Source: Hygrophila difformis
Taxonomy: Eukaryota > Streptophyta > Magnoliopsida > Lamiales > Acanthaceae
Assembly: GCA_030278955.1 (NCBI GenBank)
Contig: JAOANR010000014.1
Coordinates: 22,384,068-22,448,067 of the forward strand
Reading direction: 5' to 3'
DNA length: 64,000 bases
How positions within the stretch are numbered: the first letter of the stretch is position 1; each line of letters opens with the position of its first letter. A program made the translations under genes and the position numbers. A model generated the notes under the pieces. The model was not told where the DNA came from, made no database searches, and saw only the letters and a list, made by a program, of their open reading frames with translations. Shown here piece after piece: positions 16,891 to 53,880 of the stretch.

Positions 16891-16911
16891 CCGGTGGCGC
16901 TAAACAAAATC

Positions 16912-20829: not shown

Positions 20830-20995
20830 TCCATAACGCCGTTTGAACTCAAAGTTTCCCCTCATGAGTAATAAAAAGTGAAATATATCCTTAAACCCCT
20901 TTCCCATGAATCATAATTCCTTTCATTTAATAAATTCAATCCTGATATATTTTATTGAAGAATACTCGTGTTAGTGAAATTTGTCAAAAGTTTCA

Positions 20996-25582: not shown

Positions 25583-26768
25583 GGAGCTCTCTCACGCCAC
25601 AGAAGCAGCTCGCGCCAGACAAAGAAAGAACAAGCAGAGAAAGCGACAGCTCACGTGACCACTCACGTGACATGTTCTTTTTAATTTCCCACATGCAAAA
25701 AGACTCGGGAGGTCCAGGGACTTCAAGTCCCGTAGCACAAAGGAGTTTTGTCCTTTCCCTTGGGACTTCAACTCCCGCCCCCTCCTGCGCGCCATCTTGG
25801 AGCTAAAAAGTGTGTCCTGAACCAGATTTTGCTCCGCGACAGGCATAATTTTTTAGCGACTGGTGGGCCTTGAATGGGCCTAGGGCTCGATTCCACTACT
25901 TTATAAATATATCCTCCCACCCACTTGAACAGTAACCTAGCTACACTCTAGTTTTTCTTACTCTTGGAGGCACCACTGTGCTCTCCAAGAATTTATTAGA
26001 ATAGGTAGTTTAGTCTATTTTAATTTTATGCAATGTAGAAATAGACTCTAGCTTAGTGTTAATTTATGTTTTGTAATAAATAAGTGTAGCTAGTGTTCAA
26101 TTTATTTTCCCAGTTTATATTTTTTTGGATTTTGGGTTTGAAACACTTAATTAATGGGTGTGTTTAAACCATTTTTGGTCTTCTATGTTATATGAGAAAA
26201 TGTTCCACAAAAATGTGTTATGGATCTCCCATAATATTTATTGCTTTATTTTTACATTTTTGATCACTTGACCATTTTTATTATTTTTAGTTAGGTTTAA
26301 TGCTTTATTTAGATCTAATAAATGCATAAATACTTTATATTCATCCTTTAATAGATTAGTGTAGGTTTTATTTTTAGTTTGGTTAGTCAGCATGTTTGGA
26401 TTTGATGTTGCTGCCTGTTGCTAGTTTTTTTTATTATTATTTATATTTAGTATCCTGTTCTTGTTTTGTTTAGTTATAGCATAGTATCCTGTTTTGTTTA
26501 AGTTTTAGGAAGTGTAGTTTATTTAGTATGCTGTTTTTGTTTCATTACTATTATTTTATTTTAGTTTTAGTTTTAATACACTAGATCTTATATTGGATGA
26601 TGTTTGAGTGTTTGTGCATATTTATTTAAAATTGCATCTCCTATATTGTATTGCATCACGTTGTAACCCCACGGGTTGCAACGTAATTTTCCCGTGGGAT
26701 CACAACGCACTCCCATGCATGCAAGTTAAGGCGTTATGCTGCCCAAATTTTTATAAAATTTTTAAAAT

Positions 26769-27078
26769 CCCTCTGTCGCTAAACCCCCCAAATACTAGTA
26801 ATTTCATTCTGGAAGGGCTCTGTCGCGAAACCCCTGTCGCGGACCCACGGTCCGCGACACACTCCTTGTTCCGACAGGAATTATGCCCTTATTGGATTTT
26901 TGACCCCTGTGTCGCTAAACCCCTGTCGCTAGGCCATGCCTAGCGACACGGATTTTTGTTTAGCGACACAACAACCCTAATTTTCAAAATATCCATTTTC
27001 TCTTATTACCCACCTCTCTGTCGCGAAACCCCTGTCGCGGACCCATGGTCCGCGACACAAACTCTGTTCCGCGACAGG
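26769..27078. repeat. Palindrome array 2 in 3' LTR, one unit collapsed
   Basis: The first unit keeps only its left outer arm CCTCTGTCGCTA and then jumps into the following spacer; the remaining three units match those at 18009-18266. Confidence 0.85.
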
Positions 27079-29806
27079 CTTGGCACCTTTTTGCCAAATT
27101 TTTATTCTCCACCTCTCCCCATTAATTAATTGAACCTTTATATTAATATTTTGAGGTTGAAACCCAATGATCTCAACCCATGATTAATTTGATATAAAGA
27201 ACTTTGTTCAATTTTTCATTAAAAGATTCTTCTACATAAATTAAAAACTCTAATGATCTAAGTATATAATCCGGACTGTAATTAATTAATTAATTATGGA
27301 ATGAGTGATTATTTAGACATAAAGAGTAATTATGGATTTATTTCCATACCCTTGCATGAGAAACCAATGTCTCTCATACAAGATGGACCAAAAATATTTT
27401 CTTTTATTTATTTTGTCTTTCCCGTGTTGTGTGAAACAGCTAGTAAGAAATATAACAGACTAATGTTGGCGGGTATTCCCACACGGATAAACTAGCTCGT
27501 GGTCTGTATATTAATTACTAGATGTTATTTTGCATGGTCCGGATAGTGGTCGGTGGAAGCCTTGGCGGTTCGTCCATCCGGGATTATAATAGCTGCTCAG
27601 CTGACTCCTATCCGGATACAGTTTTCTTTTCTTTATTTTAATTTCAAACCCGAATTTTGAGCTGTGATACTATCAAATTGTGTCGATCAACACTGTTTGA
27701 ATAGTATCACAGTAAGAAAACATGTAGGTTTTTCTCCCATTTCACAGATAGTAGAAGTCTTGACGACAGCGATCACTGTCGTTTAAGGTCTTCTGCTATC
27801 TAAAATCATTCCACCCAAATGAGAGGGAAATTGGATAGCAGATGTTTGCAGTCCACCCAATCGTTTTGCCATCTTTTTAGCCAAATAAATTCTTCTCATC
27901 TCCGGCTATTTCATCTTTGTGTATCAACTTCTGTCTAAACCCGCCTTATATTTTGGGTTATTTTATTTTACACTTCTTTATAAATTTATGCATGATATTA
28001 TTATGTAGATATCGTGGTCAATATTATTTTGGGATCCTTCCCTTGGACATAGAAGTCTTGATTTAAATCAGATGCCTCACAATAAATTTCCAACAAAAAT
28101 TCATTTATAAAATCCGGATCTGAGTAAGGGATAAATTCCACAGTTATGACTAATTTATATCCGACTGGGGGTTGATTTTGGGAAATTAGAAGCAGAGTCA
28201 GCGATTAGGTCTCACCTAGACTGAAAGGGTCTGTGTTCATATTGAGAGTCTAGTACCTGTTTAGGGAATGATTTTCAAATCTATTATTTTCCAAAATTGC
28301 TTTGTATTGGAAATCTGGTATTAAATATCACACTGAAATGGGGTCCACTTGGATTCAAATACGGTGTGATAGATAATTCTAGAGGAACAATACATAGGCC
28401 TTGGTTATTTTCTAAGATAGGGTTGAGTATTCTTTCAACTGCTATCCTCTTCTGCCAAAGCCTATTTTTGAGTCCTGAGTGAGTGCATCCGGAACGAACT
28501 AATTCATTAGTTCGTTTCATTAGTTTGTATCTCATAACCACCCGGAAGGAAGTGAACACTGTGAGCGGTTCACCGAGAGCCGGGAATTCTTGATCCACAT
28601 CCGGTCATTCTGACTGGGGGCTTTCTTTTACTACCAGGGTCAGACTTTCAATAAACCTCCGAGTGATAGGATTTTAAATGCTTTCTTTATCGCTTTCTTT
28701 TAAACGCTTTCGTTAGAGGTCACTCGGTTGTATTGAGGGTTGTGTAACTGCTACTAGGACTGATAGTTAAGGGATAGTTCAGGGCTTGATTAGAATCTTA
28801 GGGTGTGACATGGGGGAATGATAGCGGTACTTGCCACTTCAATAAATGATTTGTCAGGTGTTGCTTGTCCACCACAGATGATTAACATGCCTCTACACGG
28901 CCGCGTAAGGGCAGTTGTGAGTCTGTGATATATTAGATTTTGCTGTCTTAAGAGCATGTAAATCCTTACTATTAGTACCTGTCTGTTAAAGGGAACATAG
29001 TATAGGAAGCATGAGAGTTAGCTAACTGATGAATTATCCCAAGCTAAGATCTGTGTATTAAAATGGAAGTTTAACTGTGTTTCATTTGAATCCTGTCCAA
29101 TTTTTATTCTTTTCTTCCTGTCCCTTCTGTCTCATTTTAAATCTGCTTTCTTAGCTTAATTTAACCGCTTCCTTAGAATAATTTTATGGCTTTCTTAGAT
29201 TAAATTTAATTCGCTTTCTACAATAATTTTATCTGCTTTATTTTAATTGCTTTCATAGCTTAGTTTAAATTCTGTCAAGTAGTTGATAGTCAAACACAAA
29301 CTTGAATCGAGTAACCGAGTAGAAAATCTTAGTAAACGACGTGGGCCCTGCTTCCATCGCACATCCTCCAGTGAACGATCCGGTACTTACTATAAATACT
29401 GCAATTTTTGACTCCGTGCGCTTTCGGGGGCACAGTTTCTTAACACGAGTAAATAAAAATGTGACAACCTATAAATATATCCCTATTCCCAACTCCGCCT
29501 TCATAAATCGATTTTCATTAAATAAAATCAAAACCATGATTATTATGTTTCAAAAAATATTCATGTAACGGGAACTTGTCAAAAGTTTCATGGCAAGGAT
29601 CTTCGTGGCAGGAAATTGTCAAAAGTTTCATGCCGGGGAGGTCCATAACGCCGTTTGAACTCAAAGTTTCCCCTCATGAGTAATAAAAAGTGAAATATAT
29701 CCTTAAACCCCTTCCCATGAATCATAATTCCTTTCATTTAATAAATTCAATCCTGATATATTTTATTGAAGAATACTCGTGTTAGTGAAATTTGTCAAAA
29801 GTTTCA

Positions 29807-35908: not shown

Positions 35909-36195
35909 TGATAATGGCCAGAAATGACCATTATTTTCAATCCATTTCCGTGTCTGAAACGGGCATTTGATCGCATTCTGGTCTTATATTGAATAAGAAA
36001 GCAGTAGAATTGGACTGATTTATGCATAATTGTAAAAATAATAAGCTGGTATGAAAAATGCAGAAATGTGTAATTTTATTACATATTTATGTTAGAAAAA
36101 TCCAAAAACATGAGAAAAAGAAAAGAAAAGAAAAAGGAAACAAAAAGATGGGAAAAGAAATGAAAACCCACAAAAAGTTGAATTTTTCAGGATGT

Positions 36196-36462
36196 TACGA
36201 CGCTAGACACAACTACGACGCTAAGCACGGATAGCGCCGTAGCTTGGTCTAGCGCCGTAGGAGGAGATCAAAGCTGACATCTGAAGAAGAGTGAACGACG
36301 CTAAGCATGGATAGCGCCGTAGGCAAGCATAGCGCCGTAATGAAAGATAGCGCCGTAGGCTGTCCATTCAGAAGCAAGAGTGTCTTTGGGATGGAAGACT
36401 ACGACGCTACACCTATAGCGCCGTAGCAAGGATAGCGCCGTAAGTTACCTATAGCGTCGTAA
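36196..36462. repeat. LTR palindrome array 1, TACGACGCTA alphabet
   Basis: About three two-level units, e.g. outer TACGACGCTAGA / TCTAGCGCCGTA around inner CTACGACGCTA / TAGCGCCGTAG, ending roughly 60 bp before the TATA box. This is the position where the other LTRs carry GTCGCGG palindromes. Confidence 0.9.
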
Positions 36463-36519
36463 GCCTTGCTAGAATTCAAATTTCAGGCCTGGGGGGCCAT
36501 GGGCCTAGGGTTTCTCGCC

Positions 36520-36528
36520 TATATAAAG
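36520..36528 (+). promoter_or_regulatory. LTR TATA box
   Basis: TATATAAAG after CCTAGGGTTTCTCGCC, between the two palindrome arrays. It is in the same place as TATAAATA in the sister LTRs. Confidence 0.7.
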
Positions 36529-37181
36529 GGTGTTGACTCCCTGGTCTTGTCACTTCACCACATTCCAACTTGAAGGCAAGGAGCAGTTCTTGAGCAGTGT
36601 GTAGTTAGGTTAATAGTTAGGTTTATTTTCTTGTATTATTTACATTATGCATGTAATTAGCTTAGTTTAGTTTGTATTCTGTTAGATTAGTGTTATTTTG
36701 TGACTTTCAGTTTAGGATAGCCACTGTTTTCCTTATTTACAGTCTTGTTAAACCTCTATTTAGGTTTGAAGTATCCAAATAATGGGTATTATCAAACCAT
36801 TTGATATAAAATGGGAAGTTAATCATGAAAGTGTCCCAAAAACATGAAATAGAAATGATTCCATAGATTTACTTGCTTTATTTTTGGTGTAATGACCATT
36901 TGGTTATTTTATTCTTCTCTTACAATGTGGGTTTGCTGTCTTCTTCTTCTTTTTGGGTTTCTATGCATGTTCTTATGGTTGAAAACCCTCATTTGGGTTT
37001 GTGGTTCATGAGTGTGTAGTTTAGCATAGTCTTATTTACTGTTTTGCAATTCTTGCATTTTACTTTCACTGTTCTTAGCTTGTAATTTCGTTTTTCTTCC
37101 ATTTGTGAACCATGACCTCGAAAATAGGGCTTGCAATCGCAGAGATTGCATTACCCGAACAACAACATGTTTCTGGGCTAG

Positions 37182-37649
37182 CTACGACGCTAACCGCCCT
37201 ACGGCGCTATCCTTGGATAGCGTCGTAGGTGAGGTATAGCGCCGTAGTTGCCCAGAACTTAAACAAAATTTTGCCCTACGGCACTAAACCAACGGCGCTA
37301 TCCTCAGATAGCGTCGTAATTTTTGTTTAGAGCCGTAGGTCCTCAAAAATCTTCTTTCTTACAGAACCCACCTACGGCACTATTCTCACGACGCTATCCT
37401 AGGATAGCACCGTCATTTAACGTTTAGCGCCGTAATATCTCCTCTTTTTCCAAAAACTTCTTATTTCTCAAACCACGTACGACGCTACACCTACGATGCT
37501 ATACTAGTATAGCGCCGTAGTTTAGTGTATAGCGTCGTACTTACCCTTTTTAATCCAAAATCTACTCTCTCTTGCACCAACCCATGACGACACTACCCTC
37601 ACGGCGCTATCCTAGGATAGCGCCGTAACATCTGTTTAGCGCCGTAATC
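37182..37649. repeat. LTR palindrome array 2 (five units), TACGRCGCTA alphabet
   Basis: Five units about 95-105 bp apart. Unit 1 has outer arms CTACGACGCTA (37182-37192) and TAGCGCCGTAG, and inner arms CTACGGCGCTATCC / GGATAGCGTCGTAG. Mismatches are mostly A/G against C/T, giving G-U type pairs in RNA. The architecture and number of units equal those at 50580-51052, although the arm sequences are unrelated. Confidence 0.9.
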
Positions 37650-40442
37650 AGCATTTTCATGCAGATTTTCCATTCTCCATTTCCATCATTAATTAATTGA
37701 ACCCTCTAGTCATTAATGATTTATGATTCTAATTAGCAATAATTAAATCACTAATTGTTATGATTAGAGGACCTTTGTTCAATTGCCATTAAAACATTCT
37801 TCTATAAACAAAATCATGATGTCTTAAACAGATAATCCGGACTGTAATTAATTATGGTAAGAGGGATTATTTAAGTCATCAATTATGGATTAATTCCATT
37901 ACCTTGTATGAGAAACCAATGTCTCTCATGCAAGTTCTTCTCTTTATTTCATTTTATTTTGTCTTTTGTGTATTGTGTGTAACAATTAGTAAAGAATACA
38001 TCAGACTAATGTTGGCGGGTATTCCCTCACGGATAACTAGCTCGTATTCTGGGTATTAGTTACTAAGTGTTATTTTGCATGGTCTGGATGGCAGTCAGTA
38101 GAAGCCTTGGCGGTTCGTCCATCCGGGGCTATAATAGCTGCTCAACTGATTCCCATCCGGATACAGTTTTATTTTATTTACCTTAATTTCCAACCCAAAG
38201 TCCAATCTGCAACAAAACTCTGCTAATGTCTGTCAACATTAGCTGATAAGTGTTGCAGAGAGGAAGCATGTAGGTTTTTCTCTGAATTCACAGACAGTAG
38301 GGGCCCAACTGGTAGCGACACTGCCATTTTAGGGTTTCACCTGTCTAAATTCGCTTCATCCGAGTAATTGGGAAATTGGACAGTAGATGTTTACAGTCCA
38401 CCCGATTATTCTGACAGTATTTTGGTCTCCCGACCACTTCATCTCTATGTTCCACCTTCTGTCTAGACCCGCATCTATATTTTGGGTCAATTAATTTTAC
38501 ACTTCCATATATCCTTATGCATGATAATATTATGTACTATTGTGGTCTATAATATTTTGGGATCCTTCCCTTGGACAATAGAAGCATAGGATTAAAACAG
38601 ATATTGCATATTAAATTTCCAACAAAAATCTCTTTATAAAATCCGGATCTGAGTAAGGGATAAATTCTTCAGTTATGACTAATTCATATTCTATCAAGGG
38701 TTGATTTCGGGAAATTAGAAGCAGAGTCAGCGATTAGGTCTTATCTAGGCTGAAAGGATCTGTGTTTTAAATTGAGAGTCTAGTACCTGTTTAGGGAATG
38801 ATTTTCAAATCTTTTATTTTCCAAAACTGCTTTGTCTTGGAAATCTGGTATTAAATATCACACTGAGATGGGGTCCACTTGGATTCAAATACGGTGTGAT
38901 ATATAATTCTAGAGGAACAATACACAGACCTTGGTTATTTTCTAAGATAGGGTTGAGTTTTCTTTCAACTGCTATCCTCTCTTGCCAAAGCCTACTTTTG
39001 AGTCCTGAGTGAGTGCATCCGGAACGAACTAACTAGTTAGTTCGTTTCATTAGTTTGTATCTCATAACCACCCGGAAGGAAGTGAACGCACGAGTAGTCT
39101 ACCAAGAGCCGGGAATTCTTGATCCATACCCCTTCATTCTGATGGGGAGCTGTCTTTTACTACAAGGGTCAGATCTTCAAAGCCTCCGAGTGATAGGTTT
39201 TAAATGCTTTCTATACTGTTTTCTTTACCGCTTTCTTTTAACTGCTTTCTTTCGAGGTCACTCGGTTGTATCGATGATTGTGTAACTGCTACTAGGACTG
39301 ATAGTTAAGGGATAGTTTAGGGCTTGATTAGAATCTTTGGGTGTGACATGGGAGAATGATAGTAGTACTTGGCATGTCAATAAATGATTTGTCAGGTGTT
39401 GCTTATCCACCACAGATGAAGTAACATACCCAGGCCAGGGCAGTTACAAATCTGTGGTATCTTAGAATGTGCGGTCTTAAGAACATGTAAACTCACGCTG
39501 TAAGTACCTGTCTGTTAAAGGGGACGCAGTATTGAGGGCATGAGAATTAGCTATCTGATAGAATTATCCCAAGCAAAGGTCTGTGTATAAAAATGGAAGT
39601 TTAATATTGCCTTATCTAAATCTTGTCCAATTTTCACTCTTTTCTTTCTGTCCATTCTGTCCACATTATGATTCAGCTTCACGGCTGGCATAATGTAATT
39701 TCTTCCTTGCTTTCATAGATAGTATTTATTGTATTTTTAGAATAACTTTACCCGCTTTCTAGAATAGACTTATTTGCTTTGTAGAATAAATTTAAACGCT
39801 TTCATAGTTTAGTTTAAATTCATGCCAGTAGTTGTTAATCACTTTTCAAACCCATTGGAGCAATACGAATGGAAAATCTAGTACAACGACGTGGGCCCTG
39901 CTTCTATCGCACATCCTCCAGTGAACGATCCGGTCTTACTATAAATTACTGCAATTTTTGACACCGTGCGCTTTCGGGTCACAGTTTCTTAACACGAGTA
40001 ATAAAAACGTGACAACCTATAAATATATCCCTAATCCCAACTCTGCCTTCATAAATTGGTTTCACTAAATAAAATCGAAAACCAGGATTATGATCTTTCA
40101 GAAAATGCTCATATAACGGGAATGTGATAAAAGTTTCATGGCGCGGATTTTCATGACATGGAACTATGATAAGTTACATGATGCAAATTGCCAGGAACCT
40201 TCAGTGTGACAGACTGAAGGTTAAGATTGAACTATCTATCCCGGCTGCACCGTGAAAGTTGTCAAAAGTTTCATGCCAGGGAGGTTCACAGCGCCGTTTG
40301 AAATCAGAGTACCTCATATGAGTAATAAAAAGTGGAATATATCCTTAAACCCCTTTCCCACGACTCATAACTCTTTTCATTTAATAATTTAACCTGGGAT
40401 ATTTTAGAAAATACTCGTGTGGCGAAATTGTCAAAAGTTTCA

Positions 40443-40460
40443 TGGTGCCGTTGCCGGGGA
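40443..40460 (+). other. Primer-binding site, tRNA-Asp type
   Basis: TGGTGCCGTTGCCGGGGA follows the LTR end, with one mismatch to the tRNA-Asp complement. Confidence 0.9.
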
Positions 40461-40600
40461 GGATGCAGCGCCGTTTTATTAGAGAATTACATTCCTCATT
40501 GCTCCTAGTTAGCTTATACATATAAATATAAATATTCACCCCGAAACCGATTCTAACCCGGGGAATGTGCAGGTACTGTCATAGCTAAGACCTCTGTTCT

Positions 40601-41356
40601 ATGCAAAAGAGAAAGGAGACTCCAGCCGAGATCCCGTTCAATGCAGAGATCGAGAAAACAGCTCGTCGTCTGAGGGCGGAAGCTAGACAAAGAAAGGAAC
40701 GGGAAAGACAAGCTCTACTCTCTCCAAGCACAAGCAGTGACATCTCAGACATGGCGGATAACCATGGCAATCCCCCAAACATTCCACTTAACCCACCACT
40801 CCAAAACATCCAAGAGGACCCAGAAGACGTTGATGATGAGAACTTGGAGGATCTCCCCCCTCAGGTCATTCAGGGAGGTGAGAACCCCCCAAATCTCGAG
40901 CAGCAACCCTTCGAGGTGCCTCCACCCAACCCAAACCCCCCAAACAACCCACTTAACCAGAATAATCCAAATAACCAAAATTTTCAGAATCCTCAATTTC
41001 CAGACCCTCAGTTTGACCAAAACCAGAATCATCCTAACCCTAACGATTTCAATGATCCCAGAAATTACTATCCGAATCAGAACTTTTACCCACAGCAATA
41101 CCAAGGGGGGCCAGGGAACAATCAACAGGCAGCCGCAGCTGACTATATGCAGCCCATTCTGGAACCGTATTTGAACATTCATGGACAAGCTCCATTCTTG
41201 GCCAGGAATTTCGAATTAAAGCCGGCCCTCATCAATCTTGTTCAGAGCAACCAGTTCGCAGGAGCAAATTATGAAGATCCCCATGATCATTTGCAGACTT
41301 TCCTAGAATTGTGTGATACGATCAAAAACCAGAATGTATCTGCTAACACCATTTGA
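40601..41356 (+). pseudogene. Athila-type gag, N-terminal part
   Basis: ATG at 40601, 158 bp after the primer site. A basic helical start is followed by an Asn/Pro-rich stretch, then the start of the retrotransposon gag domain (LARNFELKPALINLVQSNQF, DPHDHLQTFLELCDTI). It ends at a TGA (41354-41356) exactly where the family has an Arg before LRLFPFSL; CGA to TGA at a CpG explains it. The frame continues without shift. Confidence 0.88.
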
Positions 41357-42261
41357 TTGAGGCTGTTTCCTTTCTCTCTGACTAGCGGGGCGAGAACATG
41401 GTACAAATCACTACCCGTGAATCAGAAGTCTGCATGGGAAGACGTGATCAGAAATTTCTTGACAAAGTACTTCCCGGAGTCCAAGGTGGATGAATGCCGC
41501 TCTAAGATTGCGGAATTCAAGATGAAACCAGACGAGTCCCTGTATGATGCAAAGGAACGGTTCTTCAACTTGCTCAGGAAATGCCCCCAGCATGGTTTCC
41601 ATGATTGGGAGAAATTGAGAAAGTTCTATAGCGGTTTGACCCCAGCATGGAAGAACATGCTTGATGCTGCTGGTGGTCAACACCTGCTATACATTCCCAT
41701 GGATCAAGCTTGGGCCAAGATTGAAGCGATGAGCGTAAATAGATCTGTTCTTTCTGATGATGTTAATTCCCCTCCCCCTCGTGGTTTATGTGCTGTAGGT
41801 ACAGTAGGGAAATCCGAACTGGACAAACTGAAAGACCAAGTGGTCGTCTTGGCCTTGAATCAGGAAGCTGGGAGCTCTACACAGGCTCAAAATGCTGAAG
41901 CTGTTTGCGGGACTTGCCAAGGCCCGCATCCCACTGACTCCTGTCAGCAAGTGGCGAATGAAAGCTGTAACTATGCAGGAGGATTCCAAAACCGGCACCC
42001 GAACCTTTCATATTCCAACAACAATGCTTTGAATTCCCACCTGTTGACCCAGCCACAACAGTTCAACCAACCAAGGCCCCAGCACTTTAACCCAGGTTTT
42101 CAGCCTCAGATTCTAGCTAGGCCACCTCAAAACCAAAATTTCCAAAACTTTCAGCAGCCACAGAATCAGTTTGTCCCAAATCAGAATCAGTTTGGTCAGA
42201 ACCAAGGTCAGAACCAGAATTGGAACCAGAACCAGCAGAAACCCCCTTCCAGATTAGAGAC
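41357..42261 (+). pseudogene. Athila-type gag, middle part
   Basis: In frame with the preceding part. It contains the core gag domain (LTSGARTWYKSLP, DVIRNFLTKYFPESK, ERFFNLLRKCPQHGFHDW) and a Cys/His-poor linker rich in Gln, Asn and Pro. It is cut at 42261 by the insertion; the duplicated target is GAGAC (42257-42261). The gene resumes at 53881. Confidence 0.9.
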
Positions 42262-42565
42262 TGATAATGGCCAGAAATGACCATTATTTTCAATCCATTT
42301 CCGTGTCTTAAACGGGCATTTGATCGCATTCCGGTCTTACATTAAGTAAGAAAGCAGTCGAATTGGACTGATTTATGCATAATTGTAAAAATAATAAGCT
42401 GGTGTGAAAAAGGCATAAATATGTAATTTTATTACATAATTATGTTAGTAAAATCCAAAAACATGAGAAAAAGAAAAGGAAACAAAAAGATGGGAAAAAG
42501 AGAGAAAAAGCCCACAAAAAGAACAGTTTCGGCCCACCTGGCCCAATCCAGCAGGCCCAGGAACA

Positions 42566-42816
42566 CCTTTGTCGCGGAAGCTCCTTTGTCGCGATGCATG
42601 GTTCCGCGACAAAGGAACGCTCCGCGACCAAGCAAGCCCACAGGAAGGGGAAGACCAGCCAGAGCCCTCTGTCGCGATACCTTTGTCGCGATGCCCTGTT
42701 CCGCGACAAAGGTCCATTCCGTGACAAAGATGCATCTTTAGAGACACAAGACCCAGTCGAGAAGCTTTGCCACATGCAGTGTGTTCCGCGACCAAACTTG
42801 GTGCTCCGAGACAAAG
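42566..42816. repeat. LTR palindrome array 1
   Basis: Two to three two-level GTCGCGG / CCGCGAC units just upstream of the TATA box; copy at 49631-49880. Confidence 0.88.
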
Positions 42817-42886
42817 CTGTGATGTGTGTGATGTCTTGAGACACAATGGGCTCAAATCAAGGCCCATGAGCTTAGGGTTTCCCCTC

Positions 42887-42894
42887 TATAAATA
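42887..42894 (+). promoter_or_regulatory. LTR TATA box
   Basis: TATAAATA in CCCTCTATAAATATGAGG; the only visible promoter for the ORF starting at about 43652. Confidence 0.65.
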
Positions 42895-43512
42895 TGAGGT
42901 GTTTCCTTTGAGCTAGAAGTTGGAAGAATTGTAGAGAAAAATACTCATTCTTGAAGACAAGTGGGAAGTTCAGTAGTTTAGCTTAGTTTAGGGTAGTTTA
43001 GTTAGATTTTTCTTGTATTATTTAATTCATGCACTAGTTAGAAGTAGTTTACTGCACTTTGGTTAGATAGCCAGTTTTACTCCTTATTTCTTGTTCTAAA
43101 CTTTTGTTTAAGGGTTTGTGGTACCCAAATCATGGGTATGAACAACACCGTTTAATAAATATGGGAAAACATTCTCTATTTGTGTCCCAAAATCATGAAA
43201 TGGGTCTCACACCCCATGGATCGTACTGCGTTCGTTTTCCTTGGGTCATTTGATCCTTGTTTTGCATTTTAATGTCACTGCTTGGTGACTTTTTCTTGGG
43301 ATAATGTTGCATGCTTATGGATGATCAAGCTTAGATTAGGGTTTCTTAAGTTTTAAGTTTGTTTTATTTCCTTATTGTTCAAGCATGTTCTAGCTATATT
43401 CAAATTCTGTTTTGTCATTTTTAGCTTAGTTTGGCTTTTGAATCTGAAATGGGTGAGATCACACATAATGCATGCCACTGTTCCACTTTACTTTTCTGAC
43501 ATGTGTACTGGA

Positions 43513-43650
43513 CACCTTTGTCGCGGAACAACTCTTGTCGCGGAACCACGTTCCGCGACAAAATGATGCTTTGGCGACAAAGGTGCCAAAGAACATTTGT
43601 TAATCACTATTTTAAATCCCTTGGTCGCGAAACAACCCTTGGCGCGGAAC
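43513..43650. repeat. LTR palindrome array 2, truncated after 1.5 units
   Basis: Unit 1 is complete (CACCTTTGTCGC ... GCGACAAAGGTG). Unit 2 ends within its inner left arm at the deletion junction. Confidence 0.88.
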
Positions 43651-43651
43651 A

Positions 43652-46600
43652 GTGGGAATCGATATCTCAAACTACGATATACTCATTCCCGACCAGCCCA
43701 TAGACCCACAAGTGCGATTGCAGTTCGTGGAAAGACCTTTACCGGTAAGCCTGATACTGTCAAAGGGAGCCATTTCAATGCATGAAGCTTTCCCTTGCAT
43801 TTGGAACCCAAGGTTATTTGATAACATGGGAAGAGAAGAGCAGAGATGGGTGGCCAGGCAGGCTAAGCTAAGGCATCGGGAGATGAGTTACAACCTGCGC
43901 CACAAACTAAGGAGAATTGAGGAGTTCAACACAGAAAGGAACTCCACCATGATAAACAAGTTTAGAGAAGCAATCAATGCAGCTCGAAAAGAATGGCACG
44001 AAATGGCACTTCTGTGGGGACAAGGCAAGGGTTTCATAACACAAGAAAGATTGGATGAAGGATTGATCTTGCCAGATGAGGATAATTTTGAGACAATTTT
44101 CATAAACAAGCGGTTTGGCCAGACAAGACCAGTGGAAAGGGGAACTCAGGTGGATCCTGGATTTCCCGAGCACATCAGAGAACTAAGGGAAAAAGCCCTT
44201 TATGAGGTGCAACACCACAATTGGTCAGTACTGACCAAAAAGAAGGTGCAGCTCAGATTAATGACCGAGGCTGAAGCAAAGGAATATCTGACGTTTGACA
44301 AAGCACAGATGATGACTTATGTGACAGAAGAGCTAGAAAGAGACATGATCAACACCATGATGGAGCAATATAGAACCTCATATCTTGAACTCCTCATGGA
44401 AATGGATAGAGAAGCCTTGAGGTATGGGAAGGAAGGAAATAAGACAAAGGTCATGCACTATGACCACAAAGTCAGGCGCCTGTTTTGCACACGGATTAAG
44501 GAGGCTTGGGAACTTAAACTGGTCCGGGTGACAAGTCAGACATTTGTGCATGATTATCTGAGATTTGCACACAAACTGTTTGGAACTCAAGAAGCTCAGG
44601 AAGATCCGGAAGACCCAGATGCTGAGATTGATGCTTATTTTTCCACCCCTCCTGAGGCCAACCCACAGCCTACCCAGCCAGCAGTACAAGCTTCGGCTTT
44701 GCCGCCAAGAGGGCAGACTGACATGCAAGAACTTGCTACGTCCGAGCCAGTGGTGCAACAAGAAGCAACTCGGACTCCAACGCAGCCAGCTCAATCTGAA
44801 ATGCCAGCACCTGCCACCACTAAGGCACCCATACCGCCCGAGCAGACATCCAGTACTATTGTCGCATCTGAAGGTCAGCCAGCACCTCAACCGGGAACGA
44901 GGAGAAGATTGATAAAATCCGCTGACAAAGATAAACCAGCAAGAGCTCCGGAAAAGAAAGTGGAGATCAAGGAACCTGAACCAACTGTTAGGAAAGTGGC
45001 AGCGCCCACAGATCCCAAGGACAGGGGTAAGAAGCTAATGCCACCACCACCTCCGAAAAAGAGGCATCAAGTGGCATTCGATGCTGAGCTAGCCAGAAAG
45101 ATGCAAAATGATGAATTTGCATTAGCTGGTTTGCTGGATCAAGTAACAGGTGGTTCGGGAGTAGAGAAGGTGACGGAAGAAGAACGCTTGGCAATGGAAA
45201 AGAAAGCTGCAGAGGAAGAGCAGATCAGAAAGAACATCCAGCAGACGAAGGATGAAGAAACTGCCAGAAAGATGCAAGCTGATCTGGAAAGCAGGAAATC
45301 TGGAGAGGCTGAGCGGGGTGACGAGGAAGACTTCGAGCTGAAGATCACTGGAGAAGTGCAGGGGTGTGGATTGAAAATTAAAGAAGAACAACCTCCTGCA
45401 TGGACTGGCCCCACTGCACATGATGCTGAGACTATCCGGGGAGATATAAGGAAAAGGCTTAACGAACAGATCGAAGCAAGGATTGATAGAGGAGAAGGGC
45501 CTGAACAAATTCGTCATCACACAGAAGCATCACGAATCATTGATCCTCTTGTTGGCTCGGCCAGAATTGAGGCAGTCATCACTAAAGAAGGATCATCGCA
45601 TCAAGCTGAACAACCCCAAGGCTCGCATGAGTCCATTGATCCAGCAGCATTGGCAAAAACATTGGAAGAACAGCCAAACGACCATCTCATGGCCTCTGCG
45701 CTTAAGGAAAAGGTTCAAGGAATTGTGAATGAAGCTGCAGGTGGGGAGAATGTTGAACCTGAGGATGGAGCAGATCCCATTTCGCTTTCTGATTTGGTAA
45801 AAGAGAGAGTTGTTGAACTGCAAGAAGTTGAGAAAAAGCGAAAGGCTAGAGAGGAAGAGGATGCCACTGAACACGAGGAAGCTCGGCAGGAGGAGCAAGA
45901 ATTCATGAACCAGATGGCGCCTATTTTGCAACGTCCAGTTGGACGAGCTGCGAGAATTAGGGAGGAGGAGGAGGTATCAACTGATGTTGATAACCGTAAT
46001 TTGCATGTAACTACATCTTCTTTGCCTGTAAATTGTGAACTCAATACAATGAAAAATGTAATTAAACAGGTTGAGGAGGAATTCGGAGATGAAACAGCTC
46101 ATGGAGAAGGAGAGCCAAGTCAGAGGGGAGATGAGGCTAAACCAAGGGATGATCAGCCACAGGAAGGGGACGATCAAACAGACTGGCACACGAGCGACGA
46201 CGAATCTGTCGGATCCATTCGACCAGTCGAGTTCTGGTCTGAGAATACTGTGAGGCAAAGAATGGGCGTTTCAAAGGAATATGAGAAGAAAAAGCTGAGT
46301 GAAGAACAGGTTCAGATCAAGTTCAATGGCAACAAAGAGAATGCAGAAAAGTATAAGAAGTTGCAGAAGATGATAGTGCCAGATAAAGGGTTCAGACCCG
46401 ATGCGTTGTCGCACCCCATTGTTGCGACTTTCTACAGAAATCAAGAGTGGGGTAACTTCATGCTGCATCACGACGAAGATGGCTTCGTGGAGCTGACAAA
46501 GGAATTCTTCTTCAACATTGATAAAGATGCCAGAACAACATGGATCCGTGGACAAGTGATTAACATTGCACCTGACTGGCTGAATCAGTTCTTCGGGACT

Positions 46601-47725
46601 CCAGATATCCAAAGCGAATTTCCCCCTGATGAGATCATGACAAAGAGAGCCAAAACGAGTGAATATGCGAGGTATGCAACCTTGGCCAACAGCATGACAA
46701 GCGTGACCGCCCCAGGACATACATTCAATGCAAAATGGCTGCGAATACAGTTCATGCCAACTTATGAGTTCTACATGTCCAAGATCCGGCCCAATTTGCA
46801 TCCGCACACCACATCCGGGAATGTACTAATGGGATTTGCAAGAATGTGGAGCGGAGCAAAATTGAATGTGGGGAGGCATGTATTCGAGGTGATGATAACC
46901 CGGATAAAGGATAGACAGGTGCTATGCTATCCAAATCTGATTAGGAGAATCTGCATAGCTCAGGAAGTTGATTTGAGCGCTTTTGAGGGTGACACAGTGG
47001 TGAAAGTAAACCCACCTATCAGTGTGCCGAGACTTCCCCTGTGTGAGAGTATTAAATATTCCCTTCCCCAACTGTTCATCAGAGGAGATTCAGACGCTCA
47101 ATCCTCTTTCATATCAAGTGGGCAGACATCAAGAAAACGAAAAAGGCAGCCCAAGACAAAGAAGGGAACACAGAAAACCTGTGCTGATGCAGGACCTTCA
47201 AATGTCCAAGAAGAGCCCCCTGCGGACCAAGAACGGACAGAGATTCCAATTCCACCTCCTACTCAACCTCAACCTCAGATGCCTCCTCAAAGCCAGAACA
47301 TATCTCAGTTCCCTGCTGATTCCCAAACAATTGAGATGGTGAGCAGGATGAGTCAATCTATGCTCGAGGGAATGAAGTCCATGACTGACATAGTCATGGC
47401 AAGCCAAGAGGAACAGCGGAAAAGGGCCGAAGAGGAGCGTGAAGAGCGAAGGAGGGAGAGAGAAGAAGAACGCCAAGAGCGTAGGAGAGAAAAGGAAGAG
47501 AAGCGAAAGGAAAAGCAGGAGAAGGAAAAGAAAGAGGCGGAATTCAGGCAAATGATGATGGAAAGAGAAGAGCGCATGCACAGAGAAAGGGTGGAGAGTG
47601 AAGAGAGGCAGCGCAGAATGATGGAAACACTAATGCAAGCACTCATCAGTCAACTTCCCAAGCCACCCCCACCTCCATCAGATGCAGCAGGACCATCGAG
47701 TCAGCCAGGGGAGAAAACAGATTAA
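43652..47725 (+). CDS. Giant env-position ORF with putative plant transposon protein domain, 1357 codons, N-terminally truncated
   Basis: Open from the deletion junction to TAA at 47725; the first start-like codon is GTG at 43652, so the native start is probably lost. N-terminal third: charged and helical (IRELREKALYEVQHHN, ELERDMINTMMEQYR). Then a Pro/Thr/Gln-rich linker, two AELARKMQNDE / ETARKMQADLE motifs (about 476 and 533) in Glu-rich helices, and a globular part at about 905-1130 with ATFYRNQEWGNFML, TTWIRGQVINIAPDWLNQFF and NVLMGFARMWSGAKLNVG, resembling the putative plant transposon protein domain. A basic NLS-like SRKRKRQPKTKKG is near 1159 and a very charged coiled coil (about 1245-1330) lies near the C-terminus. 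No transmembrane span or zinc knuckle is visible. It lies where Athila elements carry their third ORF. The function is unknown. Confidence 0.75.
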   Translation: MGIDISNYDILIPDQPIDPQVRLQFVERPLPVSLILSKGAISMHEAFPCIWNPRLFDNMGREEQRWVARQAKLRHREMSYNLRHKLRRIEEFNTERNSTMINKFREAINAARKEWHEMALLWGQGKGFITQERLDEGLILPDEDNFETIFINKRFGQTRPVERGTQVDPGFPEHIRELREKALYEVQHHNWSVLTKKKVQLRLMTEAEAKEYLTFDKAQMMTYVTEELERDMINTMMEQYRTSYLELLMEMDREALRYGKEGNKTKVMHYDHKVRRLFCTRIKEAWELKLVRVTSQTFVHDYLRFAHKLFGTQEAQEDPEDPDAEIDAYFSTPPEANPQPTQPAVQASALPPRGQTDMQELATSEPVVQQEATRTPTQPAQSEMPAPATTKAPIPPEQTSSTIVASEGQPAPQPGTRRRLIKSADKDKPARAPEKKVEIKEPEPTVRKVAAPTDPKDRGKKLMPPPPPKKRHQVAFDAELARKMQNDEFALAGLLDQVTGGSGVEKVTEEERLAMEKKAAEEEQIRKNIQQTKDEETARKMQADLESRKSGEAERGDEEDFELKITGEVQGCGLKIKEEQPPAWTGPTAHDAETIRGDIRKRLNEQIEARIDRGEGPEQIRHHTEASRIIDPLVGSARIEAVITKEGSSHQAEQPQGSHESIDPAALAKTLEEQPNDHLMASALKEKVQGIVNEAAGGENVEPEDGADPISLSDLVKERVVELQEVEKKRKAREEEDATEHEEARQEEQEFMNQMAPILQRPVGRAARIREEEEVSTDVDNRNLHVTTSSLPVNCELNTMKNVIKQVEEEFGDETAHGEGEPSQRGDEAKPRDDQPQEGDDQTDWHTSDDESVGSIRPVEFWSENTVRQRMGVSKEYEKKKLSEEQVQIKFNGNKENAEKYKKLQKMIVPDKGFRPDALSHPIVATFYRNQEWGNFMLHHDEDGFVELTKEFFFNIDKDARTTWIRGQVINIAPDWLNQFFGTPDIQSEFPPDEIMTKRAKTSEYARYATLANSMTSVTAPGHTFNAKWLRIQFMPTYEFYMSKIRPNLHPHTTSGNVLMGFARMWSGAKLNVGRHVFEVMITRIKDRQVLCYPNLIRRICIAQEVDLSAFEGDTVVKVNPPISVPRLPLCESIKYSLPQLFIRGDSDAQSSFISSGQTSRKRKRQPKTKKGTQKTCADAGPSNVQEEPPADQERTEIPIPPPTQPQPQMPPQSQNISQFPADSQTIEMVSRMSQSMLEGMKSMTDIVMASQEEQRKRAEEEREERRREREEERQERRREKEEKRKEKQEKEKKEAEFRQMMMEREERMHRERVESEERQRRMMETLMQALISQLPKPPPPPSDAAGPSSQPGEKTD

Positions 47726-49326
47726 GTATGTAATTGTCATTTCAATCGAGCATAATTGTAAATATCATATAAGAGAATTTCATTTCCTTTGTGCAAAATC
47801 GTTCTGATTGCAATGGAATCTCTTGTAATTGATATCATTCATTGTTTTAATTTTGGAATTTTGCAGTCCAAACAATTTTATTCTTGAAAAGATGTCTGCA
47901 CAGTCCAAGATGAATAAGTGACTGTCAGGCCAAAAATATGCTGTGGACATACTCTGTATGTCAGCAGTGCCTCTTTACTGCTTTAAATTAAATAACCAGC
48001 AGAAATATGCATAAACCTGCTCTAAATTCACATGTTGAATTTAGGCTTGTGATTAAATTCTCAAACTTTTAAATTGGGATAATATAATTAAAGACATGCA
48101 TGACATGAATTCCTGAGGTTTTGAGCTATAAAAATTTAATGATGCGATCAGCTTATTGGGTAATAAATCTGCATGTTAGAGATTTCGATTGAATAAATTG
48201 TTAAAATTAAGCTTTGATTGAATTTGAGAACATTGTATGACATGAATCAACCCAACCTTGTGAGATCTGAGCCATGAGTCACTTTTACTCATTTATTTTC
48301 TTCGATGTGTGAATCATTTTGATTAAAGGAAAACAGGACTTGCAATTGGGACCGATTCAAGACCATGCCACATTCCCGAAATCGAGCATATGATCGAGGC
48401 ACCTAGAAAACCCAAATTTTTGGCCTTCTTTTGAAATCCAAACCCAAAAATATTTTCCCTTTAGGATTAACCCCTTTGAGCCTTAAGCCTAATTTTTCTT
48501 TGAAGCCCTTTATATTATTCCTAGCCTTATAAAAAGACCAAGAAATTCAAACCCAAGTGTGCAAGGATGAATTCTATCAAAGGCATTAAAACTATGATCA
48601 TCAAATTCATCAAATCGGTATTCAATAAACCGATTTAAAAAAAAAAAAAAAGGGATGTTGAGTTTCATTCAACAACAATGAATTGCAAATGACAAGCAAT
48701 TAGACAATAGTCTAATGTCATGCAATAGAAAAGAAAAACATTGATGCTCATAAATTTTAAATAAAAATGCCAAGTTATGATAGATTAATTCTTGCCACTT
48801 CGTAGCCCAATAATTTCCCTTTCCTACCTAATGTTACAACCGTACGCCCCGTTATAACCCTTAAATAAGACCTCGTGATCTCGATTTGAGGAAATGAGCC
48901 GGTGGCGAGTTGGTCTGATTGCAAGCATATGGGACAATTTAATTAAATTTGATTTTGAATGTTCATGATAAACCCGATTGAGAGTGAGTGATCTTTCCGA
49001 TTCTCTTATAAGTAAGGCTTTGTTTCATTAAAATGTTCATGTCATCCTCTAATTCTCATCCGTAATCTTTGCATCTTTCAAACATGATATTCATGAAGAA
49101 TTGATAATAATGTTTGATTTGTAGGCCCGATACAGTGAGCAAGTATCATTTCATTAAACACTGCAATCAAGGGAATTTAATACTTGTAGTTTTTTATTGT
49201 CTTATCCCAATCCAAAAAGGATGTGATTTATGAAGCCACGTAAATGAATTGAATATGTAGAGTCCGTGTTCTTACGAACATTGACTCTGACTGCTCGGGG
49301 ACGATCAGTATTAAATGTGAGGATGT
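47726..49326. other. 3' non-coding region of the element
   Basis: No genes. From about 48045 it is homologous to 22340-23674 of the LARD-like element, including GCTCGGGGACGATCAG and the polypurine-like AAATGTGAGGATGT (49313-49326) before the LTR. A poly(A) run interrupts it near 48640. Confidence 0.75.
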
Positions 49327-49630
49327 TGATAATGGCCAGAAATGACCATTATTTTCAATCCATTTCCGTGTCTTAAACGGGCATTTGATCACATTCCGGT
49401 CTTACATTAAGTAAGAAAGCAGTCGAATTGGACTGATTTATGCATAATTGTAAAAATAATAAGCTGGTGTGAAAAAGGCATAAATATGTAATTTTATTAC
49501 ATAATTATGTTAGAAAAATCCAAAAACATGAGAAAAAGAAAAGGAAACAAAAAGATGGGAAAAAGAGAGAAAAAGCCCACAAAAAGAACAGTTTCGGCCC
49601 ACCTGGCCCAATCCAGCAGGCCCAGGGACA

Positions 49631-49880
49631 CCTTTGTCGCGGAAGCTCCTTTGTCGCGATGCATGGTTCCGCGACAAAGGAACGCTCCGCGACCAAGCAA
49701 GCCCACAGGAAGGGGAAGACCAGCCAGAGCCCTCTGTCGCGATACCTTTGTCGCGATGCCCTGTTCCGCGACAAAGGTCCATTCCGCGACAAAGATGCAT
49801 CTTTAGAGACACAAGACCCAGTCGAGAAGCTTTGCCACATGCAGTGTGTTCCGCGACCAAACTTGGTGCTCCGAGACAAA
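49631..49880. repeat. LTR palindrome array 1
   Basis: Copy of 42566-42816, with one arm more perfect (TTCCGCGACAAAG where the other has TTCCGTGACAAAG). Confidence 0.88.
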
Positions 49881-49951
49881 GCTGTGATGTGTGTGATGTC
49901 TTGAGACACAATGGGCTCAAATCAAGGCCCATGAGCTTAGGGTTTCCCCTC

Positions 49952-49959
49952 TATAAATA
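49952..49959 (+). promoter_or_regulatory. LTR TATA box
   Basis: TATAAATA between palindrome arrays 1 and 2. If active in the 3' LTR it would read outward into Athila gag/pol at 53881. Confidence 0.6.
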
Positions 49960-50579
49960 TGAGGTGTTTCCTTTGAGCTAGAAGTTGGAAGAATTGTAGA
50001 GAAAAATACTCATTCTTGAAGACAAGTGGGAAGTTCAGTAGTTTAGCTTAGTTTAGGGTAGTTTAGTTAGATTTTTCTTGTATTATTTAATTCATGCACT
50101 AGTTAGAAGTAGTTTACTGCACTTTGGTTAGATAGCCAGTTTTACTCCTTATTTCTTGTTCTAAACTTTTGTTTAAGGGTTTGTGGTACCCAAATCATGG
50201 GTATGAACAACACCGTTTAATAAATATGGGAAAACATTCTCTATTTGTGTCCCAAAATCATGAAATGGGTCTCACACCCCATGGATCGTACTGCGTTCGT
50301 TTTCCTTGGGTCATTTGATCCTTGTTTTGCATTTTAATGTCACTGCTTGGTGACTTTTTCTTGGGATAATGTTGCATGCTTATGGATGATCAAGCTTAGA
50401 TTAGGGTTTCTTAAGTTTTAAGTTTGTTTTATTTCCTTATTGTTCAAGCATGTTCTAGCTAGATTCAAATTATGTTTTGTCATTTTTAGCTTAGTTTGGC
50501 TTTTGAATCTGAAATGGGTGAGATCACACATAATGCATGCCACTGTTCCACTTTACTTTTCTGACATGTGTACTGGACA

Positions 50580-51052
50580 CACCTTTGTCGCGGAACAACT
50601 CTTGTCGCGGAACCACGTTCCGCGACAAAATGATGCTTTGGCGACAAAGGTGCCAAAGAACATTTGTTAATCACTATTTTAAATCCCTTGGTCGCGAAAC
50701 AACCCTTGGCGCGGAACCACGTTCCGCGCCAAAATCCTGATTAGCGACCAAGGACCCAAATACTTGTGATTTTATTCTGGAAGGGCTTTGTCGCGGGGTT
50801 ACCTTGTCGCGGAACCACGTTCCGCGCCAAAACTTCTTGTTCCGCGACAAGAATTATGCCTTGTCCAATTTTCAACCCCCTTGTCGCTATGCCCCCTTGT
50901 CGCGGAACCACGTTCCGCGACAAAATTTTTACTTAGCGACAAAGCAAACCCTAAGTTTTCAAAATTCCATTCCTCTTATTTCCCACCCCTTTGTCGCGGA
51001 ACCTTTGTCGCGGAACCATGCTCCGCGACACAAACTCTATTCCGCGACAAAG
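50580..51052. repeat. LTR palindrome array 2 (five units), reference copy
   Basis: Unit 1 outer arms 50580-50591 / 50641-50652 (perfect 12 bp) with inner stem 50602-50613 / 50617-50628 and loop CAC. Unit 2 outer CCTTGGTCGC / GCGACCAAGG. Unit 3 outer TTGTCGCGG / CCGCGACAA. Unit 4 outer TTGTCGCTA / TAGCGACAA. Unit 5 outer CTTTGTCGCGGAA (50989-51001) / TTCCGCGACAAAG (51040-51052). The arms differ between units but remain complementary within each unit. Confidence 0.95.
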
Positions 51053-53620
51053 TGGCACCTTTTTGCCAAATTTTTATTCTCCATCTCACTCCATTAATTA
51101 ATTGAACCTTTATATTAATATTTTGAGGTTGAAATCCAATGATTTCAACCCATGATTAATTTGATATAAAGAACTTTATTCAATTCCCCATTAAAAGATT
51201 CTTCTACAAATGATTAAACTCTAATGATCTAAGTATATAATCCGGACTGTGATTAATTAATTATGGAATGAGTGATTATTTAGACCATGAAGAGTAATTA
51301 TGGAATCATTTCCATACCTTGCATGAGAAACCAATGTCTCTCATGCAAGATGACCCAAAAATATTTTCTTTTATTTATTTTGTCTTTTCCGTGTTGTGTG
51401 AAACAGCTAGTGAGAGATATAACAGACTAATGTTGGCGGGTATTCCCACACGGATAACTAGCTCGTGGTCTGTATATCAATTATTAGATGTTATTTTGCA
51501 TGGTCCGGATAGTGGTCGGTGGAAGCCTTGGCGGTTTGTCCATTCGGAAATATAATAGCTGCTCAGCTGACTCCTATCCGGATACAGTTTTCTTTTCTTT
51601 ATTTTAATCTCAAACCCGAATCTGGAGCTGTAGTAATATTAGACGATATTTGCCAGTGTCATCTAACAATTATTGCAGTAATAGAACATGTGGGTTTTTA
51701 TCCAAATTCACAGATAGTGGAGTCTAAGATGACGGCGGCAACTGTCATTTGAGGCATTCCACTGTCTAAAAATCATTCCACCTTAATGATTAGGGAATTG
51801 GACCACAGATAACTGCAATCCAATTAACCCTAATTATTTCGCCACCGTTTTAGCCTCAATAAATTCTTCCCATCTCCGGCTATTTCATCTCTGTGTTTCA
51901 CATTCTGTCTAAACCCACCTTATATTTTGGGTTATTTTATTTTACACTTCTCTATAAATTTATGCATGATATTATTATGTAGATATCGTGGTCATATTAT
52001 TTTGGGATCCTTCCCTTGGACATAGAAGTCTTGATTTTATAATCAGATGATTCATAATAAATTTCCAACAAAAATTCATTTATAAAATCCGGATCTGAGT
52101 AAGGGATAAATTCGACAGTTATGACTAATTCATATCCGACTGGGGGTTGATTTTGGGAAATTAGAAGCAGAGTCAGCGATTAGGTCTCACCTAGACTGAA
52201 AGGATCTGTGTTTTAATTGAGAGTCTAGTACCTGATAGGGAATGATTTTCAGATTTATTATTTTCCAAAATTGCTGTTTGTTGGAAATCTTGTATTAAAT
52301 ATTGCACTTGGTCAGATTCCACTTGGATTCCGATAAGGTGTGACAGATAATACTAGAGGAACAACATTCGGGCCTTGGTTATTTTCTAAGGTAGGGTTGA
52401 GTATTCTTTCAACTGCTATCTTCTTCTGCCAAAGCCCATTTTTGAGTCCTGAGTGAGTGCATCCGGAACGAACTAATTTATTAGTTCGTTTCATTAGTTT
52501 GTATCTCACAACCACCCGACGAGAAGTGAACACTGCGAGCGGTTCACCGAGAATAGGGAATTCTTGATCCACATCCGGTCATTCTGACTGGGGGCTTTCT
52601 TTTACTACCAGGGTCAGACTTTCAAAAACCTCCGAGTGATAGGATTTTAAATGCTTTCTTTACCGCTTTCTTTTAAATGCTTTCGTTAGAGGTCACTCGG
52701 TTGTATTGAGAGTTGTGTAACTGCTACTAGGACTGAGAGTTAAGGGATAATTCAGGCTTGATTAGAATCTTTGGGTGTGACATGGGGGAATGATAACGGT
52801 ACTTGACACTTCAATAAATGATTTGTCAGGTGTTGCTTGTCCACCACAGATAAATAACATGCCTCTACACGGCCGTGTGAGGGCAGTTGTGAGTCTGTGG
52901 TATCTTAGATTTTGCTGTCTTAAGAGCATGTAAACTCATACTGCAAGTACCTGTCTGTTAAAGGGAAAGCATTACTGAGAGCATGAGAATTAGCTATCTG
53001 ATAGAATTATCCCCACACAAAGATCTGCGTATAAAAATGGAAGTTTATTACTGCTTTATCTCAATCTTGTCCAATTTTCATTCTTTTCTTCCTGTCCCTT
53101 CTGTCTACATTGTGATTCACCTTAACGGTTGGCACAATGTGATTTTCCCTTGCTTTCATCGATAATGTTTATCGCATTCTTAGAATAAATTTTCCCCGCA
53201 TCCTAGAATAGATTTATTCGCTTTGTAGAGTAATTTAAATGCTTTTGTAACCTGGTTTAAATTCATGTCAGTAGTTGTTAATCACCTTTTAAACCTATTG
53301 AGCAATACGAATGGAAAATCTAGTAAAACGACATGGGCCCTGCTTCTATCGCACATCCTCCAGTGAACGATCCGGTCTTACTATAAATTACTGCAATTTT
53401 TGACACCGTGCGCTTTCGGGCCACAATTTCTTAAACACGAGCAATAAAAGCATGACTACTTATAAATATATCCCTAATCACAACCCCGCCATCATAAATT
53501 GGTTTCGTTAAATAAAATCTAAACCAGGATTATGATTTTTCGGAAAATACTCATGTCGTGGAAATCTGTCAAAAGTTTCATGGCAGGAAATCTTATGGCA
53601 AGAATTGATGAGAAGTATCA

Positions 53621-53640
53621 TGGCATATTTGCCGGGGATC
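53621..53640 (+). other. Relic tRNA-Asp primer site inside the LTR
   Basis: TGGCATATTTGCCGGGGATC, about 240 bp before the LTR end and preceded by border-like GTCAAAAGTTTCATGGC at about 53568. It is the counterpart of 1840-1859. Confidence 0.65.
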
Positions 53641-53880
53641 CTCAGTGTGACAGGCTGAAGATCAACCTATCCCGGCTGTGCCATGAGATTTGTCAACATT
53701 TCATGACAGAGAGGACCACAGCGCCATTTGAAACCAAGCACCACACTTGAGTAATAAAAAGAGTAACAATCTTGATATATCCCTAAACCCATTCCATAAA
53801 TCATAACGGTTTTCATTTAATAAATCTAACCTGGTATATTTTGGAAAAAGCTCGTGTGGACGAAATTGTCAAAAGTTTCA

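Follow-up and report, generated by a model that had tools for sequence, protein, structure and literature searches.

When related long terminal repeats (LTRs) carry inverted-repeat arrays at the same positions, each written in a different short word, is it the structure or the word that is maintained, and what could read it? The question was raised by a 64,000-nucleotide stretch of the Hygrophila difformis genome (hereafter, the window), in which a sequence-only reading had recognized two colinear LTRs, LTR A (35909..40442) and LTR B (49327..53880), each with an array 1 immediately 5' of a TATA box and, about 0.65 kb 3' of that box, an array 2 of five units. These coordinates, the colinearity, and the placement of both arrays were borne out, and so were the arms, TACGRCGCTA in LTR A and TTGTCGCGGAA in LTR B, which define the word sets that we call M2 and M1, respectively. 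In LTR A, array 1 (36196..36461) lies shortly 5' of TATATAAA at 36520, and array 2 occupies 37183..37646; in LTR B, array 1 (49634..49879) lies shortly 5' of TATAAATA at 49952, and array 2 occupies 50585..51050, both LTRs and all four arrays being on the plus strand. The distance from the TATA box to array 2 is 663 bp in LTR A and 633 bp in LTR B. The arms form F-F-R-R (FFRR) units of about 60 bp. A unit architecture common to both LTRs had been proposed, which holds for array 2, built of five FFRR units in each, and less strictly for array 1 of LTR A, which is less regular (FFRR FRRR FRRR); the proposed unit length of 60 to 75 bp had to be corrected to 56 to 67 bp, with one unit of 78 bp. Between about positions 270 and 1754, a region including both arrays, LTRs A and B share a single aligning piece of 142 columns with 73% identity. 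The remaining family LTRs in the window carry like arrays.

LTR A is followed by a primer binding site (PBS)-like stretch and by gag pieces of the Ty3 type (Retrotrans_gag, PF03732; E value of 6.2e-18). The PBS-like TGGYGCCGTTGCCGGGGA stands directly after the LTR at 40443, and again at 1595 on the minus strand; it may be complementary to tRNA-Asp. The array-bearing family belongs to the Ty3/gypsy LTR retrotransposons and is likely of the Athila type. An accessory-type M1 element on the minus strand begins with a 5' LTR at 1596..6021 (99.3% identity to its partner LTR over 870 bp), with its M1 arrays 1 and 2 within 4300..5713. At 15256..20995 on the plus strand lies an LTR of the long type whose M1 word set has diverged, and the second LTR of the same element, also of the long type, is at 23675..29806 on that strand (98.9% identity over 5,231 aligned positions). 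LTRs L066, L044, and L068 are also diverged, with words of the CTGTCGC or GTCGCTA type, which look like M1 relatives and not like a third set. The 5' LTR of element B, a piece at 42262..43650 on the plus strand matching LTR B at 99.4%, breaks off inside array 2 and joins an accessory open frame directly; the break is a deletion with one end within the inverted-repeat array. The window also contains a Ty1/copia gag-pol open frame of 1416 codons (31595-35845, minus strand; RVT_2 E value of 4.6e-69) and fragments of a further Ty3-type element (59992-63629, plus strand) with RVP_2, RVT_1, RNase H, and integrase zinc-binding matches.

Both words are far more abundant than chance accounts for. In the window, TACGRCGCTA occurs 34 times with at most one mismatch (1.8 expected from dinucleotide shuffles), and TTGTCGCGGAA occurs 109 times with at most two mismatches (12.0 expected); for neither word did any of 100 shuffles reach the observed count. 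In the 915-Mb genome, there are 58,519 exact M1 sites versus 76 for the reversed word and 37,907 exact M2 sites versus 714 for the reversed control, and a pattern for the LTR start has 11,035 occurrences with at most two mismatches (control, 0). Among the first 100 M1 sites listed, 87 stand at known array distances from listed LTR starts, a few of which may take their label from a neighboring LTR. The 13 others form two clusters, one resembling an array 2 whose LTR is not in the list and one resembling the extra-gene array in the element at 481 kb.

For comparison across copies, we assembled 76 LTR starts: 40 from a listing of 100, 30 ranked by likeness to LTR A, a sampling that favors M2, and 6 from the window. 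The 40 comprise 20 taken by list order and 20 picked by hand, in most cases a single shorter-type LTR from each element; LTR L078 was added to the hand-picked set since M2 had already been seen there. The 76 are not independent, because L009 is the LTR at window position 35909, so that one LTR is present twice, and because several rows pair the LTRs of one element. When these 76 starts and two accessory promoters were parsed, 421 FFRR units (237 M1 and 184 M2) were recovered, from 76 of the 78 sequences. Their geometry is rigid: inner-arm centers are separated by 16 bp in 218 of the 237 M1 units and by 18 bp in 181 of the 184 M2 units. Counting distinct arms only, the M1 core GTCGC is 86 to 100% conserved across all four arm classes, and every M2 column reaches at least 92% conservation, the exceptions being column 5 (R), column 1 in three of the four arm classes, and column 7 in one class. 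The number of units in M2 array 2 is four or five depending on the copy.

Every LTR that could be typed at both arrays uses a single word set. Array 2 carried the word set of array 1 in each of the 70 callable starts (37 M1 and 33 M2) of this nonindependent sample, with no discordant case; the other 6 had too few words at one array to be called. Genome-wide, we counted 19,128 M1-M1 and 10,228 M2-M2 head-to-head pairs 3 to 30 bp apart (reversed controls, 0), and no mixed M1/M2 pair of exact words in head-to-head order; the two mixed-pair searches are reverse complements of each other and count as a single test. The earlier suggestion that whole cassettes are swapped found support in L078, which has an M1-type long backbone with M2 words at both arrays. 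The sequence 3' of its array 2 shares 89.7% identity with the LTR at 15256, a repeat with M1-like words, and array 2 itself can be aligned to that of LTR A with 81% identity; this array looks to have been exchanged through recombination. The flanks of its array 1 align best with M1-type long LTRs, and the matches between array 1 itself and its counterpart in LTR A come in pieces no longer than 50 columns. The same element has an internal M2 pair about 4.3 kb 5' of the 3' LTR start (G000:C1:12174200-12174239), perhaps a further internal promoter array with the matching word set.

We then asked what is conserved within the units, using alignments of 30 M2 and 26 M1 sequences from which truncated, long-type, and duplicate copies were excluded. 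The sequence-only reading had held that the structure, not the sequence, is maintained. For M2 this failed: both sides had changed in 4 of 100 pairs versus 2.6 in shuffled data, and 94 of 500 shuffles were as high. For M1 it stood to a limited extent: 24 of 110 pairs had changed on both sides versus 13.2, a value reached by 0 of 500 shuffles and compared with at most 9 in slid controls, mostly outside the GTCGC core, and even here single-arm changes outnumbered double ones. Counted in cells, single-arm versus Watson-Crick double changes were 564 versus 194 in the outer and 341 versus 38 in the inner arms of M1, and 84 versus 1 and 147 versus 1, respectively, in M2. When outer arms were compared at nonconsensus columns, the true partner beat a partner from another unit in 30 of 39 M1 sequences and in 1 of 35 M2 sequences. 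M2 array 2 (30 sequences) has several fixed mismatches; its paired cells amount to 90.1% versus 89.8% in shuffles, a small difference that no shuffle reached. Its both-side-changed cells (10 versus 3.2 shuffled) and covariation score (0.028 versus 0.026) show small excesses of a kind that relatedness alone can produce. In the degenerate R/Y column of M2, the two arms vary independently, with 137 A-C and 78 G-T combinations among 368 cells. Total G-U versus A-C counts were 87 versus 138 in M2 and 111 versus 146 in M1; in the rare states, they were 18 versus 32 in M2 and 31 versus 14 in M1. Folded as RNA, array 2 is more stable than its shuffles (z scores of -12.2 and -13.3); the M1 fold tracks the units, and the minimum-energy M2 fold pairs arms largely between units. 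From the covariation, partner-swap, and folding results taken together, we therefore conclude that the thing conserved is a motif at rigid spacing, and that pairing is mostly a by-product of inverted repetition. The structure-first reading was thus rejected for M2, by the partner swaps within LTRs and the controlled pair counts, and is minor for M1, where the changes outside the core leave room for selection or for templated correction. Of the roles that had been listed for the arrays, CpG-rich protein-binding sites fit the evidence best.

The same words recur at a third place, in front of accessory genes. In the minus-strand element starting at 6021, M1 FFRR units (array 3, 564..1070) stand 5' of a predicted internal promoter at 336..554, also on the minus strand, with TATTTAAA at 554-547, a putative ATG at 389, and a short predicted first exon ending at a GT at 336. 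All 40 scored copies (of 731 candidates) match this promoter and exon stretch at 95 to 100%. This element has three long open reading frames (ORFs); none matched gag or pol, and one has a PF20167 domain. Two matches to PF20167 had E values of 3.4e-12 and 6.7e-14. The accessory open frame of element B (43616..47722, plus strand; 1369 codons stop to stop), which is N-terminally truncated, has PF20167 at residues 944 to 1119. A further PF20167 open frame, of 503 residues (13774-15288, minus strand; E value of 1.1e-21), abuts and overlaps the start of the LTR at 15256 and shows almost no relation to the element B accessory protein (blastp E value of 0.19).

We had predicted beforehand that the accessory gene of M2 elements in this length class would have M2 words at the corresponding place, and an M2 array does stand 5' of its predicted internal promoter: in the one element read, M2 units run directly up to TTTTAAATA, after which come an ATG and a short exon terminating in GT. 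The array was spanned by all 40 scored copies (of 903 candidates) with 87 to 100% identity. Six of these 40 lie within 16 kb of one of 40 listed M2 LTR starts; the strand is shared in 5 cases, and in 3 the offset is +4.80 to +4.87 kb. Gag-bearing elements may have an extra gene of their own. In one M1 element with gag, a further M1 array lies 3.65 to 4.04 kb 5' of the 3' LTR; next come TATTTATA, an ATG, and a short exon that has a GT, and this extra-gene stretch was matched at 94 to 100% by all 40 scored copies (of 1,775 candidates). M1 sites at this distance upstream were found at 3 of the 12 LTR starts compared, one start with an overlapping neighbor LTR being excluded. The agreement of the two arrays in all 70 callable starts, the lack of exact mixed pairs, and the M2 array at the M2 accessory gene point to a DNA address that is read by a trans-acting factor.

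The accessory proteins of the two lineages are homologous. Over 228 residues, M1 and M2 are 51% identical, with an excess of silent changes (pN of 0.31 and a saturated pS of 0.76); the M2 piece is from a single copy with a stop inside, in the same element as the promoter letters. The gag pieces of M1 and M2 elements are 70 to 85% identical (about 79% in DNA), and therefore the split of the accessory genes, judged from the one M2 copy, looks older than that of gag. Two M1 accessory proteins are only 51.5% identical in the N-terminal third, and a single word set therefore accompanies unlike N termini. A four-row fold model of PF20167 had a pLDDT of 41, too low for any DNA-binding fold to be read from it, and none of 239 candidate homologues of the accessory domain reached an E value of 0.001 or lower.

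We propose that the words mark where a promoter-switching protein docks, one that the family would itself encode, in a VANC-like self-recognition within an LTR retrotransposon, and we put the chance that this is correct at about even. The inverted words at fixed spacing beside each predicted promoter read would be the docking address. The accessory gene with PF20167, whose predicted promoter shares its word set with the LTRs of the element, would encode the switch protein. Docked on words in pairs or tetrads, the protein would activate its own gene, either by relieving silencing or by initiating transcription, and would act likewise in trans on the LTRs of gag-bearing partners with the matching word set. 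A lineage could then change its address only by shifting all sites together, through recombination or regrowth of arrays. Tentatively, and with somewhat less confidence, we extend this to two orthogonal and mutually exclusive address codes, each read by its own accessory protein, with helpers free of gag and pol serving gag-bearing partners in trans, as a retrotransposon counterpart of VANC. That the arrays mark promoters, that a protein binds them, that the accessory protein is the binder, and that binding would relieve silencing or activate transcription are all inferred; escape from silencing is a plausible role. Protection of the words from CpG decay was considered and is unsupported: in a small test on 10 elements, comparison of the two LTRs of each gave equal decay inside the words (8 of 608) and outside them (8 of 756; Fisher P value of 0.80). 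This equal decay speaks against a switch protein, as do the unlike N termini of the M1 proteins, the reading of the M2 promoter and its stop-holding protein from one copy, and the low pLDDT; the covariation in M1 leaves open a structural or RNA role.

Other readers of the words are conceivable. Host proteins could bind the words, be they two different transcription factors or a silencing factor, and two lineages would have gathered the sites, the accessory gene merely having the same type of promoter. The position of the words beside TATA boxes at fixed spacing agrees with this, and an element-encoded binder rests on inference. With both factors present, however, mixed arrays are not obviously forbidden, yet no exact mixed pair was found, and each element has a single word set at all array positions read; we consider a host factor unlikely. 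A folded RNA in the leader and 3' end, serving in packaging, dimerization, or translation control, or a hairpin as small-RNA source or decoy, would mean that pairing itself is selected. The folding of array-2 RNAs far beyond shuffles (z scores of -12.2 and -13.3), the M1 covariation above both shuffles and slid controls, and the lean of rare M1 states to G-U (31 versus 14) agree with this. RNA folding is nevertheless disfavored because M2 is without covariation and the G-U total does not exceed A-C in either set. The fixed M2 mismatches, the pairing between units in the minimum-energy M2 fold, and the position of array 1 and the internal arrays 5' of TATA boxes also count against it, and we hold an RNA role to be rather improbable.

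It could also be that the arrays have no function at all and are selfish satellites, inverted repeats that expand and are homogenized within lineages. Templated correction in palindromes during reverse transcription would restore their pairing. The varying number of units in M2 array 2 and the apparent recombinational exchange of array 2 in L078 are in line with such a satellite. Free drift does not readily account for one word set at separate sites with unrelated flanks and at several kinds of predicted promoters, for spacing that nearly all units hold within 1 to 2 bp, or for the lack of exact mixed pairs, and we regard this explanation as very improbable.

If the words are indeed an address read by the family's own protein, such a code, in a family whose LTR starts number about 11,000, may go some way to explaining how families of this kind outrun silencing, why word sets have split into exclusive lineages, and how an element without gag and pol can be kept as a helper. 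Two proteins set against two words within one genome would be a direct test of a lock-and-key change.

PF20167 connects the family to known elements. The excerpted report on sunflower Athila 14 describes an extra ORF with this domain, predicts a nuclear signal in it, and connects the domain with ORF1 of Athila (PMC11728184). The likeness is a PF20167 protein within a Ty3/gypsy element. Here, in contrast, the domain is found in elements without a gag or pol domain in their three long ORFs, and the accessory gene stands behind its own predicted promoter with the LTR word set, an array of which the excerpt of PMC11728184 makes no mention. Grande gene23 (PMC7264820) and the extra genes of Retand (PMC11963269) are alike in being accessory genes close to the 3' end, and gene23 has its own promoter. 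In Retand, the stretch from pol to the 3' LTR often holds tandem repeats particular to the family, and DNA binding has been suggested for the extra protein. Unlike the genes here, those of Grande and Retand are antisense, and their repeats, as far as the excerpts of these papers go, are not tied to an LTR motif or to two exclusive sets (PMC7264820, PMC11963269). The extra ORF of sunflower Tekay, likened to double-stranded-RNA-binding proteins, is another LTR-retrotransposon protein discussed alongside VANC-type systems (PMC12844716); it differs in lineage and protein, and motif arrays are not mentioned in the excerpt. The Athila ORF with its predicted nuclear signal and the Grande gene23 promoter, as given in these partial sources, fit with nuclear accessory proteins in related elements. 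Among the matches listed from the open-licence literature, none had an LTR word array common to an accessory promoter, and the matches listed for six words of 10 to 11 letters included no plant-retrotransposon title.

Motif-addressed antisilencing in plants has been described, in the excerpted sources, for VANDAL DNA transposons (PMC5735166, PMC10398659). The targets of VANC proteins are repeated noncoding motifs, including the introns of VANC21 and VANB21 and the region upstream of VANA21 (PMC5735166); RNA-directed DNA methylation acts on the same regions (PMC10398659), and a meeting report refers to unpublished structures of VANC with its target DNA (PMC12859917). Membership of the present family in VANDAL/VANC was ruled out, as both the element class and the domains differ. 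VANDAL is a Mutator-like DNA transposon, whereas here there are LTRs, a PBS-like site, and gag; VANDAL motifs are reported as tandem repeats, whereas the FFRR units are inverted; and VANC has DUF1985 and DUF287, whereas the accessory protein has PF20167, with no match to either domain in protein P0001 and the L079 ORF with PF20167 (E value of 0.1 or lower) or in the other two L079 ORFs (E value of 0.01 or lower). Binding and demethylation are reported for VANC, and the binder here is a prediction from sequence. The likeness lies in the arrangement. In Arabidopsis VANDAL, as far as the partial sources tell, a short motif is repeated in noncoding regions and also near the genes of the element, as are arrays 1 to 4 here, the protein of the element reads its own motif set, and the sets differ between relatives (PMC5735166, PMC10398659).
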